Program-made: the position numbers and the translations under genes | In this document: positions 15,185 to 36,516 of the stretch, in pieces | Numbering within the stretch: position 1 is the stretch's first letter | How the letters are laid out: each line of letters starts with the position of its first letter | Origin: an uncultured Prevotellaceae bacterium | GTDB lineage: Bacteria > Bacteroidota > Bacteroidia > Bacteroidales > Bacteroidaceae | Direction of reading: 5' to 3' | DNA: 64,000 nucleotides | Assembly: GCA_946405805.1 (NCBI GenBank) | Contig: CAMJIL010000002.1 | Span: 27,663-91,662, forward strand | The notes under the pieces: generated by a model | The model's database searches: none | Seen by the model: the letters and a program-made list of their open reading frames with translations, nothing else | What the model was told of the DNA's origin: nothing

Positions 15185-15256
15185 TGGGTAACGGTTAAAG
15201 GTTAAAGGTTAAAGAGGTTCTTGAAGTTTTCGTTTTCGTTTTGGTTTTCGTTGATA

Positions 15257-19082: not shown

Positions 19083-25943
<6,861 letters not shown>

Positions 25944-28999: not shown

Positions 29000-30181
29000 A
29001 TGAAGAAGCAGACTATAGCCATACATACACCTTATGTTCGCCCTGATGCTTACGGGTCGCTGGCAGTACCCATATATAGTAATGTGTCATTCGAATTTGA
29101 TGATGCACAAACTATGAGCGATGCCTTCTGCAACCGTATCAAGGCACCTGACTATGCGAGAATTGCAAACCCTACCGTGACACAGTTTGAACAGCGTGTG
29201 AAGGCCCTGACAGGAGCAGAACATGTAACGGCAGTAAATTCTGGTATGGCGGCTATCAGCACGGTATTGCTGGCTGTATCCGCACAGGGAAAGAACATCG
29301 TCACATCACGTCACTTGTTTGGCAATACACTTGCCCTCATCAGCGGTTCGCTGTTACGACTTGGGGTGAAGCCACGATTGCGTGACCTGACAGACCTGCA
29401 GGCGGTAGAGGATGCTATTGACGAGAATACTGCATGCGTATATCTGGAAATAATAACAAATCCACAGTTGGAAGTGGCAGACCTCAAGGGTATTGCCGAC
29501 ATAGCACACAAAAAGGGAGTGCCTGTAATAGCCGACTCTACCATCATCCCATTTACAGAAACCTCTTTGAAGGATTTCGGAGTGGATATTGAGGTGGTAT
29601 CGAGCACGAAATACATCTCCGGTGGCGGCACATCGTTGGGCGGACTGATAATCGATTATGGTACATTTCCTCTGATAAACAAATTTGTGAAATATGACCT
29701 CCTTATAAACTTAGGTGTTTATATGACGCCGCAGACGGCTTATATGCAGACGCTGGGATTAGAGACTCTCGACGTTCGCTACCAACGTCAGGCAGCCAAT
29801 GCGCAATGGCTTGCGGAAGCACTGAACGATGTGCCTGGAATAACGAACGTGAACTATGTCGGACTGCCCGACAATCCATTTCACGATTTAGCACAGCGAC
29901 AGTTCGGAAAGACGTCAGGAGCAATGCTCACCATAGACCTCGCATCGAAGGAAGAATGCTTCAAGTTCCTCAACAACCTGAAACTGATACATCGTGCCAC
30001 AAACCTCTTTGACAGCAGAACACTGGCAATACATCCGGCATCAACAATCTTCGGGCTCTTCCCAGAAAGACAGTTGGTACAGATGGATGTAAGACAGACA
30101 ACAATACGCCTGTCCATAGGACTGGAAGCGCCAGAGGATATTTTGGATGACATTAAGCAAGCGATAGGGAATGAAGAATAA
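29000..30181 (+). CDS. Cys/Met-metabolism PLP enzyme (MetY / O-acetylhomoserine or O-acetylserine sulfhydrylase-like)
   Basis: YARIANPTVTQFEQRVKALTGAEHVTAVNSGMAAIS, SSTKYISGGGTSLGG (PLP lysine). Confidence 0.88.
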   Translation: MKKQTIAIHTPYVRPDAYGSLAVPIYSNVSFEFDDAQTMSDAFCNRIKAPDYARIANPTVTQFEQRVKALTGAEHVTAVNSGMAAISTVLLAVSAQGKNIVTSRHLFGNTLALISGSLLRLGVKPRLRDLTDLQAVEDAIDENTACVYLEIITNPQLEVADLKGIADIAHKKGVPVIADSTIIPFTETSLKDFGVDIEVVSSTKYISGGGTSLGGLIIDYGTFPLINKFVKYDLLINLGVYMTPQTAYMQTLGLETLDVRYQRQAANAQWLAEALNDVPGITNVNYVGLPDNPFHDLAQRQFGKTSGAMLTIDLASKEECFKFLNNLKLIHRATNLFDSRTLAIHPASTIFGLFPERQLVQMDVRQTTIRLSIGLEAPEDILDDIKQAIGNEE

Positions 30182-30215
30182 TTATCAATTATCAACTATC
30201 AACTATCAACTAAAT
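30176..30215 (+). repeat. Heptamer tandem repeat (aattatc/aactatc) between PLP enzyme and DsrE-like gene
   Basis: attatcaattatcaactatcaactatcaacta, 7-bp period. Confidence 0.85.
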
Positions 30216-30220
30216 AAAAG

Positions 30221-30700
30221 ATGGCAGACAATAGAAAACTGAGCATCATCGCTTTCAGCGGTGATTTTGACAAGCTGACAGCAGTGTTTACACTTGCAAC
30301 GGGTGCAGCAGCAGTAGGTTATGAAGTAAATATCTTCTTTACGTTTTGGGGACTCGACGCCATAAAGCAGAAACAGGGACGCAGTTTCACCGGTGGCAAC
30401 TGGCTGACAAAGATATTCGGCTTTATGATGGGTGGCCTCAATGTCACTCCTACAAGCCGATTTAACTTCCTCGGCGCAGGACCGAAGATATTCCGTTCCC
30501 TTATGCGTAAGAATAACGTAGCAACCTTGGAGGAACTGGTAGAGGCTGCAAAGGTTCTCGGCATCAACTTGTATGCATGCGAGATGGCGATGCATGTACT
30601 GGGGCTGAAGAAGGAAGACTTCATTCCGGAAGTGAAGGATGTACTGGGGGTAGCATCATTCCTAAACCTCAGCGAAGGAGGCCAAACGCTGTTCATTTAA
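30221..30700 (+). CDS. DsrE/DsrF/DsrH-like family protein
   Basis: DKLTAVFTLATGAAAVGYEVNIFFTFWGLDAIK and conserved YACEMAM cysteine. Confidence 0.85.
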   Translation: MADNRKLSIIAFSGDFDKLTAVFTLATGAAAVGYEVNIFFTFWGLDAIKQKQGRSFTGGNWLTKIFGFMMGGLNVTPTSRFNFLGAGPKIFRSLMRKNNVATLEELVEAAKVLGINLYACEMAMHVLGLKKEDFIPEVKDVLGVASFLNLSEGGQTLFI

Positions 30701-30760: not shown

Positions 30761-30985
30761 ATGGCAACAAAAGTATTAGACATTACGAAGGAACATTGCC
30801 CTATGACCTTCGTGAAGACAAAGATTGAACTGTCAAAACTGCAGCCGGGGGACATCCTGGAGGTGCTGCTGAGTGAGGGCGAACCGCTTGACAATGTACC
30901 ACGCAATGCAAAGGAACAGGGCTACAACGTAGTAGCTATAGAGCATGTGGAGGGTTCTACCCATAAAGTCGTGATAGAGCGATAG
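30761..30985 (+). CDS. TusA-family sulfur carrier
   Basis: CPMTFVKTKIELSKLQPGD, the TusA Cys-Pro motif. Confidence 0.85.
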   Translation: MATKVLDITKEHCPMTFVKTKIELSKLQPGDILEVLLSEGEPLDNVPRNAKEQGYNVVAIEHVEGSTHKVVIER

Positions 30986-31053: not shown

Positions 31054-32493
31054 ATGGCTGATTCAAATTTACAGCGCAGTGTGACCACTGCGACCGCCAG
31101 AAAACTGGCTACCACTACCAAGACCGCCCCACAGATGGGCTCTATCACCCCAAGACTGCTGCTAAAGCTCCTGCCATGGGTACAGGTCAGCGGTGGTACT
31201 TTCCGCGTGAACCGCACAAAGGTGGAATTGCGTAAGAACGACCGTCTGCCAATACAGTATGTGAATGGCGTACCATCATTTACAGCAAAGAACTTAAAGG
31301 CTATTCCACTGTTCTCAGAGTTCGACGACGAGATACTGAACCGTCTGGTAAGCTCTTTCGAGACAAAAGAGGTAGATGTTGACAAATACTTCGTCGAAGA
31401 GGGTAAGGACAAACAGCGTTTCTTCATCGTTGCCAGCGGACAGGCAGAGGTTGTCAGCAAGGGTTCACACGGCGAAGACCTGCGGATTGCATTGTTGGGT
31501 GACGGCGAATACTTTGGCGAGGCAGACCTGCTCGACGAACAGAAATCTACCGTTTCAGTACGTGCCATAACACCTACTATATTCCTTGGCCTTAAACTGA
31601 AGGAACTGATAAAGTTTATCAACGAGGTGCCTGACTTCCGCGAGACATTCAACAAGGCCGTTGACAAGCAGCTGCGCCTGAAGGCATCGGTAAACGACAA
31701 TGGCGAGAAACACATCGACCTGGTATCTGGTCACGAAGAGGACAATATCATACCAGAGACATACATCGATTACGAAGAGAATCCAACAGAGTATGGACTG
31801 AACACCCTGCAGACAGTAGTGCGTGTACACACTCGCGTCAGCGACCTCTACAACAACCCTTACAACCAACTGGAAGAGCAGCTACGTTTGTCAATAGAAA
31901 GCATTAAGGAACGTCAGGAATGGGAGCTCATCAACAATAAGCAATTCGGCTTGCTGGCGTCTGCCAATCCTGCTTATCGTATTACCACACGCTATGGAGC
32001 ACCAACCCCTGACGACCTTGATGAACTGCTTTCTCTCGTATGGAAGGAGCCAGCATTCTTCATTGCCCATCCACGTGCTATTGCAGCCTTCGAACGCGAA
32101 TGCACTTGGCGCGGAGTGCCTCCTGTTACTACCGACCTCTTCGGAACAAAAGTTATACTGTGGCGCGGAGTGCCTCTGATTCCTTCTGACAAAGTAGAGG
32201 TAGAAGGACAATATCTTACCGGCCGTGGCGTTGGTACGACAAAGATAATCCTCGTTCGTGTAGGCGAAAAGAGTCAGGGTGTCGTTGGTTTACACCAGAG
32301 CGGCATACCAGGAGAGATAGCTCCATCGCTGAGCGCACGTCTGATGGGACTTGATAAGTTTGGCGTCGCTTCTTATCTCCTCACGAAATATTTCTCACTG
32401 GCTTCTCTCACCGACGATGCTATCGCAGTACTCGAGAATGTAGAGGTGGGTTATTATCATGACTATCAGCATCGCAACGCTGTTGCTAAGTGA
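31054..32493 (+). CDS. Family 2 encapsulin shell protein with internal cyclic-nucleotide-binding-like domain
   Basis: Short N-arm, CBD-like insert (FFIVASGQAEVVS...LGDGEYFGEADLL, ~aa 75-195), then HK97-type shell region (LQTVVRVHTRVSDLYNNPYNQLEEQLRL...QEWELINNKQFGLLA...TTDLFGTKVILWRGVPLIPSDKV); next to a cysteine desulfurase. Confidence 0.87.
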   Translation: MADSNLQRSVTTATARKLATTTKTAPQMGSITPRLLLKLLPWVQVSGGTFRVNRTKVELRKNDRLPIQYVNGVPSFTAKNLKAIPLFSEFDDEILNRLVSSFETKEVDVDKYFVEEGKDKQRFFIVASGQAEVVSKGSHGEDLRIALLGDGEYFGEADLLDEQKSTVSVRAITPTIFLGLKLKELIKFINEVPDFRETFNKAVDKQLRLKASVNDNGEKHIDLVSGHEEDNIIPETYIDYEENPTEYGLNTLQTVVRVHTRVSDLYNNPYNQLEEQLRLSIESIKERQEWELINNKQFGLLASANPAYRITTRYGAPTPDDLDELLSLVWKEPAFFIAHPRAIAAFERECTWRGVPPVTTDLFGTKVILWRGVPLIPSDKVEVEGQYLTGRGVGTTKIILVRVGEKSQGVVGLHQSGIPGEIAPSLSARLMGLDKFGVASYLLTKYFSLASLTDDAIAVLENVEVGYYHDYQHRNAVAK

Positions 32494-32530
32494 AAAGTAC
32501 AGAGAGAAGAATAATTATGCATTGTGAATT

Positions 32531-33970
32531 ATGAATTTTGAATTGATTAACAACTACGACATAGAGGATCCTGGCTTCGCCCTGCTCCGTGAAGTAGCAC
32601 AAAAATACTGTCCGGAGGAATTTCAGGAACAGCGCAAGGAGTTCTTCCCCTTGCCTGATGAAGAGCTGAATCTCTCTGCAATAGAGAGCAGCGAACCGTT
32701 CGGCATCGGCATTCCTGAGACTCACAAGCTGGAGGACCTGCACTACGAAGAGGCTGACACTCTGAACTCCGACCAGATAAAGCGCGACTTCCCGGTATTG
32801 CAGCAGAAGGTGAATGGCCACGACCTCGTGTGGTTGGACAATGGTGCAACAACGCAAAAGCCTAATCAGGTAATCGACAAGATTTCTGATTACTACCGCA
32901 CGTACAACTCCAACATACATCGCGGAGCACACACTCTGGCAGCGCGTGCAACAGATGCTTATGAAGAGGCGCGTGAGAAGGTGCAGCGTTTCATCAATGC
33001 CGCAACAAGCGAAGAGATAATCTTCGTACGAGGCACTACAGAGGGCATCAACCTCGTGGCACAGGCTTACGGAAGACAATTCCTGACACCTGGCGACGAG
33101 GTGATAGTATCGGAACTGGACCACCACGCAAACATCGTACCTTGGCAGCGTGTATGTCAGGAACGCGGTGCTACGTTGAGGGCTATACCGACGGACCAGA
33201 ACGGAGACCTTATCCTCTCGGAATTTGAACGCCTCATAACACCTCGTACACGATTCGTTTCTGTAGGACATGTAAACAATACCTTCGGCACTATCAACGA
33301 TGTGCAACGCATCATAGACATTGCCCACTCACACCATATTCCGGTGCTGATAGACGGAGCACAGTCGATTGCCCACACACCTGTTGACGTACAGAAACTG
33401 GGAGCTGATTTCTTTGTATTCAGCGGTCACAAGATTTACGGTCCTAACGGCATCGGTGTAGTATATGGTCGCAAGGAGCTGCTCGACAAGATGCAGCCTT
33501 GGCAAGGCGGTGGTAACATGATTAAGGATGTGACCATCGAACGCACAGAGTATAATGAGCCACCGGCACGTTTCGAGGCTGGCACACCAAATGTGGCTGA
33601 TGCCATCGGTTTGGGAGCGGCACTCGATTACGTAAACCATCTCGGCATCCGTAATATTGAACACCATGAGCACCAGCTCACAGAGTATGCACGCGAACAG
33701 CTGGGACAGATTCCGGGCTTGACGCTCATTGGCAACCCAAAGAACCGCGTTTCGGTAGTTAGCTTCGTTCTCGACGGCATACCAGTGCCCGAGGTGGGTA
33801 CTCTGCTCGACAAGGAAGGTATCGCAGTACGTGCCGGTCACCACTGCGCACAACCTGCCCTGCGTGCTCTGGGGTACGAGATGAGTGTTCGGCCAACATT
33901 TGCTCTGTACAACACGCGCGAAGATGTTGATAAGTTAGTAATAGCTGTAAAAAAGATTATAGGAAGATAA
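32531..33970 (+). CDS. SufS-type cysteine desulfurase with ~80-aa N-terminal extension (putative encapsulin cargo)
   Basis: FVRGTTEGINLVAQAYG, SGHKIYGPNGIGVVYG (PLP Lys), AGHHCAQP (catalytic Cys); extra low-conservation N-terminal ~80 aa. Confidence 0.92.
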   Translation: MNFELINNYDIEDPGFALLREVAQKYCPEEFQEQRKEFFPLPDEELNLSAIESSEPFGIGIPETHKLEDLHYEEADTLNSDQIKRDFPVLQQKVNGHDLVWLDNGATTQKPNQVIDKISDYYRTYNSNIHRGAHTLAARATDAYEEAREKVQRFINAATSEEIIFVRGTTEGINLVAQAYGRQFLTPGDEVIVSELDHHANIVPWQRVCQERGATLRAIPTDQNGDLILSEFERLITPRTRFVSVGHVNNTFGTINDVQRIIDIAHSHHIPVLIDGAQSIAHTPVDVQKLGADFFVFSGHKIYGPNGIGVVYGRKELLDKMQPWQGGGNMIKDVTIERTEYNEPPARFEAGTPNVADAIGLGAALDYVNHLGIRNIEHHEHQLTEYAREQLGQIPGLTLIGNPKNRVSVVSFVLDGIPVPEVGTLLDKEGIAVRAGHHCAQPALRALGYEMSVRPTFALYNTREDVDKLVIAVKKIIGR

Positions 33971-33973
33971 ACT

Positions 33974-34198
33974 ATGGCAAAGATAATAGTTAACGGTGAG
34001 GCACAGGAGGTACAACTGCCTGTCAGCCTCACAGAATTGATAAAAAAGAATGACGTACAGCAGCCGGAAATGGTTAGCGTACAGGTTAATGATGAATTCG
34101 TGGACCGCGACGAATGGGACAAGGTTTCAATAAAGGAAGGCGACGCCGTGGATTTTCTGTACTTCATGGGAGGAGGGGATATAAAGTTTAAAGTTTAA
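33974..34198 (+). CDS. ThiS/MoaD-like sulfur carrier protein with C-terminal extension past the Gly-Gly
   Basis: MAKIIVNGEAQEVQLPVSLTELI fold start; ends FMGGGDIKFKV. Confidence 0.85.
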   Translation: MAKIIVNGEAQEVQLPVSLTELIKKNDVQQPEMVSVQVNDEFVDRDEWDKVSIKEGDAVDFLYFMGGGDIKFKV

Positions 34199-34223
34199 AG
34201 TTTAGAGTTTAAAGTTTAAAGTT
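34185..34223 (+). repeat. Heptamer tandem repeat (tttaaag) overlapping the 3' end of the thiS-like gene
   Basis: aaagtttaaagtttaaagtttagagtttaaagtttaaagtt, 7-bp period. Confidence 0.9.
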
Positions 34224-35030
34224 ATGATTGACTTCACAGAAGAACAGATTAAACGTTATTCACGGCACATCCTGCTGCAGGACGTTGGTGTAGAGGGACA
34301 GGAGAAGATTATGAACGCCCGAGTGCTCGTTGTGGGTGCCGGCGGACTGGGAGCTCCTGTGTCTTTATACCTCGCCGCAGCGGGTGTCGGAACAATAGGT
34401 ATCGTGGATGCCGATGTAGTAGATCTTAGCAACCTGCAGCGGCAGGTGATACACTTCACAAAGGACGTGGGAGTGCCGAAGGTGAAGAGTGCAAAAGAGA
34501 AGATAGAGGCCATAAACCCTGATGTAAAGGTGGAGACATATTATGAGTTCCTCGATTCTTCCAATGCCCTCGACATCATAAAAAACTACGATTTCATCGT
34601 TGACGGCACTGACAACTTCCCGGTAAAATTCCTCATCAACGATGCTTGCGTAATGGCAGGAAAGCCTTTCTCACACGGAGGAATCCTACGCTTCAACGGC
34701 CAGACCTTCACCCACCTGCCAGGCACCGCCTGCTACAGGTGTATGTTCAAGGAGCCGCCTCCTGCAGGAGCAGTTCCTACCTGTTCGCAGGCAGGAGTAT
34801 TAGGAGCCATCGCCGGTATGTTGGGAACCATTCAGGCAGCCGAAACGCTGAAGTATTTCACTGGTGTAGGAGAACTGCTGACAAACCGCCTGCTCACCTT
34901 TGATGCAAAGACGATGCAGTTCCGTACCGTTGCCGTGAAACATCGCGACTCATGCCCTGTTTGCGGCACAGCACCTACCATCGACCACCTCATTGACTAC
35001 GAACAGGCCGCCTGCGATTTGAAACATTAA
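34224..35030 (+). CDS. ThiF/MoeB/HesA-family adenylyltransferase
   Basis: RYSRHILLQDVGVEGQEKI, GAGGLGAP, CYRC...CPVC zinc site; no rhodanese domain. Confidence 0.95.
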   Translation: MIDFTEEQIKRYSRHILLQDVGVEGQEKIMNARVLVVGAGGLGAPVSLYLAAAGVGTIGIVDADVVDLSNLQRQVIHFTKDVGVPKVKSAKEKIEAINPDVKVETYYEFLDSSNALDIIKNYDFIVDGTDNFPVKFLINDACVMAGKPFSHGGILRFNGQTFTHLPGTACYRCMFKEPPPAGAVPTCSQAGVLGAIAGMLGTIQAAETLKYFTGVGELLTNRLLTFDAKTMQFRTVAVKHRDSCPVCGTAPTIDHLIDYEQAACDLKH

Positions 35031-35041
35031 ACATCAAAAGC

Positions 35042-35075
35042 CTTTGACTTTTGACATTAGACTTTTGACTTTTAA
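35042..35075 (+). repeat. Degenerate heptamer repeat (cttttga) between thiF-like and JAMM genes
   Basis: cctttgacttttgacattagacttttgactttt. Confidence 0.8.
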
Positions 35076-35078
35076 AAG

Positions 35079-35477
35079 ATGAAAATACCACAAAACATAA
35101 TTGATGAATTGATCAGCCAGGCTCAGCAGGACGCGCCGAACGAAACGTGCGGCTACCTGCTGGGCACTAGCTCAGAGGATGCTGACATCGTAACAGAAAA
35201 CTACGAGATGGAGAATATAGACCATTCACCGGAACATTTCTCGTTTAATCCGAAAGACCAATTTGCGGCACTGAAGTATGCTCGCTCCAAGGGACTGAAG
35301 ATTCTTGCCAACTGGCATAGCCATCCTGCGTCACCATCACGTCCGTCACAGGAGGATATCCGTCTGGCTAACGACCCGACAATACGTTATGCCATCCTCT
35401 CCCTGCACGATGGCATACACCTGAATTCTTTCAAGATTATCAACGGTGAAATCGTTGACAAAGAAGTACATTTATGA
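35079..35477 (+). CDS. JAMM/Mov34 metalloprotease (Mec+/HcyD-like)
   Basis: NETCGYLLG and WHSHPASPSRPSQEDI (HxHP...SxxD JAMM motif). Confidence 0.92.
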   Translation: MKIPQNIIDELISQAQQDAPNETCGYLLGTSSEDADIVTENYEMENIDHSPEHFSFNPKDQFAALKYARSKGLKILANWHSHPASPSRPSQEDIRLANDPTIRYAILSLHDGIHLNSFKIINGEIVDKEVHL

Positions 35478-35588
35478 TAATTGATAATTGATAATTGACA
35501 ATTGATAATTGACCTTTGACCTTTCTTGCAGTCGGGCGTACAAACCCTTTGTGCAAGCGGACAAGCCGAGCGGACCTTAGACCTTTGA
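35476..35588 (+). repeat. Heptamer repeats (ttgataa, tttgacc) interrupted by a ~45-bp non-repeat segment, JAMM-cysE gap
   Basis: tgataattgataattgataattgacaattgataattgacctttgacctttcttgcagtcgggcgt...ccttagacctttgac. Confidence 0.8.
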
Positions 35589-35598
35589 CAAAAAAATT

Positions 35599-36516
35599 AT
35601 GGAAAAAGACACCAACGAGATACTGATGCGAAACGTTGCTCTGCTGTCAAAACAGACAGAGCAGGAGACAAGTATGATGCCGCAGACAGATGCTCCCCTA
35701 CCCTCCGTGGAACAGGTGAAGCAGATAGTATGCCTGGTGAAGAGTATGATATTCCCTGACTACTTCACCAAACGCCCGGCAACCGAGACGATAAACTCTT
35801 ACTTCATCGGCGTGAAGATGATGGAGCTGCTGCAGCTACTGACAAAGCAGATAGCCCACGGCATGCAGTTTTGTGAGGACAGCCATAAATTCACATCTAA
35901 GGAACAGGTGTATGAACTGGCGAACAAACTGGCACTGCAGTTTATCGACACCTTGCCGGAGATAAAACGCCTGCTTTATACTGACGTACAGGCTATGTTC
36001 GACAATGACCCTGCGGCTCTGAACTATGGAGAGGTGATATTCTGCTATCCCGTAGTGCAGGCTATGACACATTACCGCATCGCCCACAAGCTTCACGAGC
36101 TAAAAGTACCGGTGATACCGCGCATTATTACAGAATTAGCTCACTCCAAGACAGGTATCGACATCCATCCTGGAGCGCAAATAGGAGAATACTTCGCCAT
36201 CGACCACGGCACGGGTGTCGTTATCGGTGAGACATCTGTCATCGGCAACCATGTAACCCTCTATCAGGGCGTCACCCTCGGTTCGAAAAATTTCAAGCAC
36301 GACGAGCAGGGCAATATCCTGAACGTCCCGCGCCATCCTATCATAGAAGACTATGTCACAGTATATTCCAATGCCAGCATCTTAGGCCGCATCACCATCG
36401 GACACCATTCTATAATAGGCGGTAACATCTGGGTAACCCATAACGTAGCCCCTAACTCACGCATCCAACAGTCAAAAGCCGTAGAAAGCCACTACGAGGG
36501 CGGATTGGGGATATAA
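35599..36516 (+). CDS. cysE: Serine O-acetyltransferase (EpsC/CysE type)
   Basis: Left-handed beta-helix hexapeptide repeats: GIDIHPGAQIG, AIDHGTGVVIGETSVIG, TLYQGVTLG. Confidence 0.92.
   Translation: MEKDTNEILMRNVALLSKQTEQETSMMPQTDAPLPSVEQVKQIVCLVKSMIFPDYFTKRPATETINSYFIGVKMMELLQLLTKQIAHGMQFCEDSHKFTSKEQVYELANKLALQFIDTLPEIKRLLYTDVQAMFDNDPAALNYGEVIFCYPVVQAMTHYRIAHKLHELKVPVIPRIITELAHSKTGIDIHPGAQIGEYFAIDHGTGVVIGETSVIGNHVTLYQGVTLGSKNFKHDEQGNILNVPRHPIIEDYVTVYSNASILGRITIGHHSIIGGNIWVTHNVAPNSRIQQSKAVESHYEGGLGI

Follow-up and report, generated by a model that had tools for sequence, protein, structure and literature searches.

A family 2B encapsulin gene within a sulfur-carrier operon suggests that a rumen-type Prevotella shell feeds sulfur into amino acids such as homocysteine

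Results

Genes at the locus

The window (the whole stretch of DNA that was analysed, 64,000 nucleotides long) contains nine closely spaced genes on the + strand between positions 29000 and 36516, encoding in order a MetY-like enzyme, DsrE2, TusA, the shell, the desulfurase, a ThiS-like carrier, ThiF, a JAMM protein and a serine O-acetyltransferase (SAT). These genes, with two features inside them, are:

29000..30181, +, MetY-like PLP enzyme, candidate homocysteine/cysteine synthase using carrier-bound sulfur (393 aa; PF01053)
30221..30700, +, DsrE2-type sulfurtransferase, linked to the shell across families (159 aa; PF13686, 137.6 bits)
30761..30985, +, TusA sulfur carrier with CPMT motif (74 aa; PF01206)
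31054..32493, +, predicted family 2B encapsulin shell protein (479 aa; NF041163, PF19307, PF00027; solved shells 9bje, 9bhu, 9bix, 6x8m)
31381..31623, +, inserted CBD-like domain of the shell (residues 110-190; PF00027)
32531..33970, +, SufS-type cysteine desulfurase, presumed cargo (479 aa; TIGR01979; NF041166 below cut-off)
32531..32764, +, acidic N-terminal extension of the desulfurase, candidate loading segment (about residues 1-78; outside the sufS match)
33974..34198, +, ThiS-like sulfur carrier ending GGG-DIKFKV (74 aa; TIGR01683, 66.6 bits, cut-off 37.45)
34224..35030, +, ThiF/MoeB-like adenylyltransferase (268 aa; PF00899, 276.6 bits; NF004281, 282.7, cut-off 266)
35079..35477, +, JAMM/JAB metalloprotease, candidate carrier-tail protease (132 aa; PF14464, 89.4 bits; HSH-x7-SxxD motif from the translation)
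35599..36516, +, SAT of EpsC/CysE type (305 aa; NF041874, 150.2, cut-off 150; TIGR01172 below cut-off)

The desulfurase and carrier genes are separated by 3 nt. The solved structure closest to the MetY-like enzyme is 3ri6 (330 bits; the next scores 240), which is the Wolinella succinogenes enzyme acting in the protein-thiocarboxylate route to homocysteine. The MetY-like gene is linked in both locus arrangements found in Prevotella, and the CPMT motif of TusA is kept in every aligned copy. This sulfur-carrier operon, absent from an earlier sequence-only reading of the same DNA, is more informative than the pairing of shell and desulfurase. Besides the operon desulfurase, each of six Prevotella-type genomes encodes a single further SufS-like desulfurase (48-51% identical), as well as separate MetY-like and CysK-like genes; thus, the cluster adds to general sulfur metabolism and is not a replacement for it.

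Short tandem repeats of 7-bp units (TATCAAC, TAAAGTT, TTTGACT, TGATAAT and others) form more than 20 arrays between positions 15189 and 50636 of the window. Arrays inside the operon are intergenic (e.g. 30183-30212, 34182-34223, 35043-35073 and 35475-35512), and the tail of the ThiS-like carrier ends in residues encoded by one array. Outside the operon, a 2286-aa open reading frame on the - strand (19083-25943) reads in translation as a two-module non-ribosomal peptide synthetase with a reductase-like domain at its end.

The shell gene and its inserted CBD

Both open reading frames singled out by the sequence-only reading lie exactly where it had placed them (31054-32493 and 32531-33970, + strand, 479 aa each). 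Its description of the first as an HK97-type shell split by a CBD, the family 2B layout, was borne out by profile searches. NF041163 (encap_f2b) matched residues 9-466 with 562.9 bits (cut-off 400), PF19307 (SrpI-like) matched residues 209-466 with 373.7 bits, and PF00027 fell on residues 110-190. Of the solved shells, 9bje aligned with residues 7-466 (E 3e-114), and SrpI (6x8m) aligned in two pieces, 2-56 and 224-474. Since the SrpI match splits around the PF00027 region, the CBD is an insertion that interrupts the shell domain. The predicted model of the shell, made from a shallow alignment of window and related-locus proteins with shell rows 93-98% identical, reached a mean pLDDT of 37.8; because the predicted models are of low confidence, the HK97 fold is assigned from homology to the solved shells.

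Could the gene instead encode a Crp/Fnr-type regulator, or is it a phage capsid gene? The CBD fits a regulator, and the molecules in 9bje and 9bix were named Crp/Fnr regulators by their depositors. However, the 2B shell equivalog is matched over nearly the full length and far above its cut-off, and the metabolic operon around the shell is kept across species, making this assignment highly improbable. Homology thus identifies the 479-aa open reading frame as a virus-derived family 2B encapsulin shell, which would assemble into a particle. The particle size of ~24 nm given earlier needs revision, as a family 2B shell measures about 28 nm (Sl-Enc2, PMC12407261).

At E <= 1e-60, the family 2B model NF041163 matched 0 of 14 control genomes. 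Shell counts take NF041163 matches above the cut-off or below 1e-60, as loose E-values bring in hundreds of CBD-only matches. A single shell match was obtained in the window genome. Comparison of the shell gene with those of two congeneric loci (L063 and L111) gave dN/dS values of 0.015-0.026, with dS close to saturation, indicating that the gene is kept by strong purifying selection.

In an alignment with cGMP-dependent kinases, the canonical phosphate-binding Arg of the cassette is replaced by Ser165 in the window shell, and the same Ser occurs in all 18 shells compared, which come from the window's genus, other Bacteroidales and a Chlorobiaceae-like family. The cassette glutamate (FGE) is retained. 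Because of the replacement of the Arg by an invariant Ser, the CBD is predicted to be unlikely to bind cyclic nucleotides, in agreement with the reported absence of such binding by a family 2B CBD (PMC12407261).

The desulfurase and its N-terminal extension

The assignment of the next gene as a SufS-type desulfurase with an extra segment ahead of the catalytic core was likewise upheld. TIGR01979 (sufS) matched with 567 bits (cut-off 475), starting at residue 82, and the motifs SGHKIYGP and RAGHHCAQP are intact in the translation. The leading segment is acidic, as had been noticed, the 86 residues preceding FPVL having a net charge of -15 (15 Glu, 7 Asp, 9 Leu and 6 Pro). The predicted model, from an alignment limited to window and related-locus proteins, had a mean pLDDT of 50.7. 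In contrast to how it had been presented, the pairing of shell and desulfurase is not unusual: operons that join a family 2B shell with a desulfurase were already described in 2021, 199 of them across nine phyla (PMC8346489).

Every complete relative checked has an N-terminal extension, variable in length, with 85-97 aa preceding the core in the window desulfurase and several relatives. In two extensions (L042 and L060), VQYDASPQHPAAL is repeated in frame, which suggests repeat expansion as the source of the length variation.

The window desulfurase did not reach the cut-off of 800 for family 2A desulfurase cargo (NF041166); it scored 729.9 bits over profile positions 214-623 only, leaving positions 1-213 unmatched. 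A profile of the family 2A loading motif LARLANEFFS scored at best -9.1 on its N-terminus, no better than shuffled sequence (p 0.79). Scanning the Bacteroidales extensions with a family 2A/Chlorobiaceae-like cargo-motif profile gave nothing above shuffles; the motif is clear in 2A and Chlorobiaceae-like 2B cargo. In the latter, 219-356 residues precede the core and include a clear LA.LA..LF-like motif that resembles the published family 2A motif (PMC8049743). Since the window extension lacks a 2A-like motif, the desulfurase may be loaded by another element, or weakly, or not at all.

These data bear on whether the desulfurase is internal cargo. It might instead remain cytosolic with TusA and the carrier, the shell enclosing something else or loading the enzyme weakly, as the shortness of the extension in the window and several relatives and the missing loading motif would allow. 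We consider this improbable: the extension is found in every complete relative checked, with the variability in length expected of a disordered segment, and the desulfurase is the constant adjoining partner of the shell.

Conservation and gene order

Scanning a single genome for each species gave 543 places encoding shell relatives. Of the best 80 of the 543, nearly all carry the label Prevotella, Prevotellaceae or Bacteroidales, and many are from ruminant samples. Two arrangements occur in Prevotella. The first is that of the window, with all genes on the same strand; in the second, ThiS-ThiF-JAMM is divergent from DsrE2-TusA-shell-desulfurase, and a MetY gene of ~55% identity lies downstream. 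Loci of other Bacteroidales families have the orders ThiS-ThiF-DsrE2-TusA-JAMM-shell-desulfurase-SAT (L145 and L146), TusA-JAMM-shell-desulfurase beside ThiS-ThiF-DsrE2-SAT (L147) and ThiS-DsrE2-TusA-shell-desulfurase (L142). Maintenance of linkage across Bacteroidales families despite shuffled gene order points to a shared function. In seven loci (L038, L049, L072, L079, L091, L092 and L100), ThiS, ThiF and JAMM were absent within about 8 kb of the shell.

In the phylum sample, SAT, a 2B-length shell and the desulfurase were found in nearly all sampled members of one family (f137; L148-L161), which we take to be Chlorobiaceae. No JAMM or TusA matches were detected near the shell and desulfurase in these loci.

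Co-occurrence was analyzed at two levels. The order sample comprised 295 genomes, of which 7 had a shell scoring above the 2B cut-off, 12 had JAMM and 6 had both (Fisher p 7e-9, ignoring kinship); the seventh shell genome, without JAMM, is only 65% complete. Among 250 genomes of the genus sample, the shell was present in 61, JAMM in 73 and both in 57 (p 2e-36, again ignoring kinship), and 45 of 51 same-contig shell/JAMM pairs in the genus were within 5 kb of each other.

The JAMM/carrier module was also found without the shell, in 16 genus genomes and 6 order genomes, and thus does not depend on it. In 4 of these 6 order genomes, which have no shell above the cut-off (G030, G123, G213 and G220 being the 4), a sulfite-reductase match (PF01077) lay within about 6 kb of JAMM. 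This suggests that the carrier module is the broader unit, for which encapsulin and desulfurase are an alternative sulfur source. A test of whether shell genomes have replaced sulfite reductase gave only a trend that is not significant: PF01077 was present in 3 of 12 shell genomes versus 4 of 6 shell-less module genomes (p 0.14), and it is also present in the genome of the window itself. In four loci (L175, L177, L180 and L182), the carrier module adjoins a 775-794 aa protein matching both PF01077 and TusA, an apparent fusion.

The existence of shell-less modules beside a sulfite-reductase-like protein, together with the Chlorobiaceae-like shell and desulfurase that have SAT and no JAMM or TusA matches nearby, would also fit a different division of labor, in which shell and desulfurase form their own sulfur store or cysteine-controlling compartment and the carrier genes are neighbors with a separate sulfur-assimilation job. 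This seems the less likely reading, as the shell and carrier sets remain linked when gene order changes and show strong co-occurrence, and the shell pair sits between carrier genes in several loci.

The C-terminal tail of the carrier

In the window, the carrier continues beyond GGG with DIKFKV; i.e. residues after the Gly-Gly are present. Among linked carrier genes, 73 of 74 extend 1-23 variable residues beyond GGG and one stops at GGG, whereas ThiS in the Chlorobiaceae-like loci ends exactly at GGG. Tails are removed from other JAMM-processed carriers. A variable and nearly always present tail fits, but does not prove, removal by the JAMM protein of the operon.

Discussion

From the genes identified and their intact motifs, together with the conserved linkage, the co-occurrence of shell and JAMM and the observed carrier tail, we propose, with a probability of about 50%, that the encapsulated desulfurase supplies sulfur via TusA and DsrE2 to the carrier for synthesis of homocysteine or cysteine. 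The desulfurase, loaded within the assembled shell, would take sulfur from cysteine, and the persulfide sulfur would be passed onward by TusA and DsrE2, this order and direction of transfer being the presumed one; sulfur might also be stored in the shell. The ThiS-like carrier would be trimmed by JAMM, exposing Gly-Gly, adenylated by ThiF and then converted to the thiocarboxylate. The MetY-like enzyme would use the carrier sulfur to form homocysteine, or cysteine with SAT giving O-acetylserine, and JAMM may in addition free the amino acid from the carrier. Homocysteine makes better sense as the product, because building cysteine with cysteine sulfur would be circular; against homocysteine stand the canonical MetY and CysK encoded elsewhere in the genome. 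Against the relay as such stand the absence of the loading motif, the loci without ThiS, ThiF and JAMM near the shell, and the carrier modules without a shell. A little more tentatively, the encapsulin may be the sulfur source of a thiocarboxylate amino-acid pathway, the encapsulated desulfurase having been inserted, in Bacteroidales, in a carrier module that is fed elsewhere by sulfite reduction.

If correct, this would constitute a sulfur relay from compartment to carrier. The operon names candidate acceptors for sulfur freed inside desulfurase encapsulins (TusA, DsrE2 and the ThiS-like carrier). As these and the candidate end product are linked and co-conserved, the destination of encapsulin sulfur becomes directly testable. 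The operon also joins encapsulins with ubiquitin-like sulfur carriers and JAMM proteases, which are treated apart in the literature searched. About one in four species sampled in the window's genus carries the shell (61/250), and the shell's closest relatives (best 80 of 543) come mostly from ruminant samples.

Comparison with known systems

Pairing of shell and desulfurase is already published; coupling to a JAMM/ThiS carrier module did not turn up in the literature searched, which is incomplete. In the main texts of openly accessible papers, nothing relevant joined encapsulin with Prevotella, or with ThiS, JAMM, TusA or DsrE, 'ThiS' being confusable with 'this' in the latter case. The published family 2B operons (PMC8346489) resemble the window in having a CBD-bearing shell, a SufS-type desulfurase with an unannotated N-terminus and SAT nearby. 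They differ in that SAT and rhodanese are enriched there, whereas TusA, DsrE2, the ThiS-like carrier, ThiF, JAMM and the MetY-like gene are linked in the window.

The family 2A system of Synechococcus elongatus, SrpI/CyD, has a homologous shell domain (6x8m) and a desulfurase cargo, as is presumed for the window; the family 2A desulfurase is loaded into its shell and more active when encapsulated (PMC8049743). SrpI is without a CBD, in contrast to the window shell, and the loading domain of its cargo is 225 aa long and contains two motifs, whereas the window desulfurase has an extension of about 80 aa without the first motif. The two-component 2B shell of Streptomyces lydicus (PMC12407261) shares with the window a CBD in the HK97 E-loop and diverged ligand-binding residues of the CBD. 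It belongs to a xylulose-kinase system with two shell genes, unlike the single shell match of the window genome.

The window also contains the Wolinella-type gene set of linked ThiS-like carrier, ThiF-like E1, JAMM and O-acetylhomoserine sulfhydrylase. Wolinella succinogenes reportedly has a protein-thiocarboxylate homocysteine pathway, to which PMC5764234 refers, with these four components. ThiS-JAB-E1-SirA-O-acetylhomoserine sulfhydrylase neighborhoods with sulfate-assimilation genes have been an established type since 2006, and encapsulins go unmentioned in the consulted passages on them (PMC1779556). The window shares with the Wolinella pathway and this type the ThiS-like carrier, ThiF-like E1, JAMM/JAB, TusA/SirA and O-acetylhomoserine sulfhydrylase. 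The partners differ, being sulfate-assimilation genes in those systems and an encapsulin with a cysteine desulfurase in the window.
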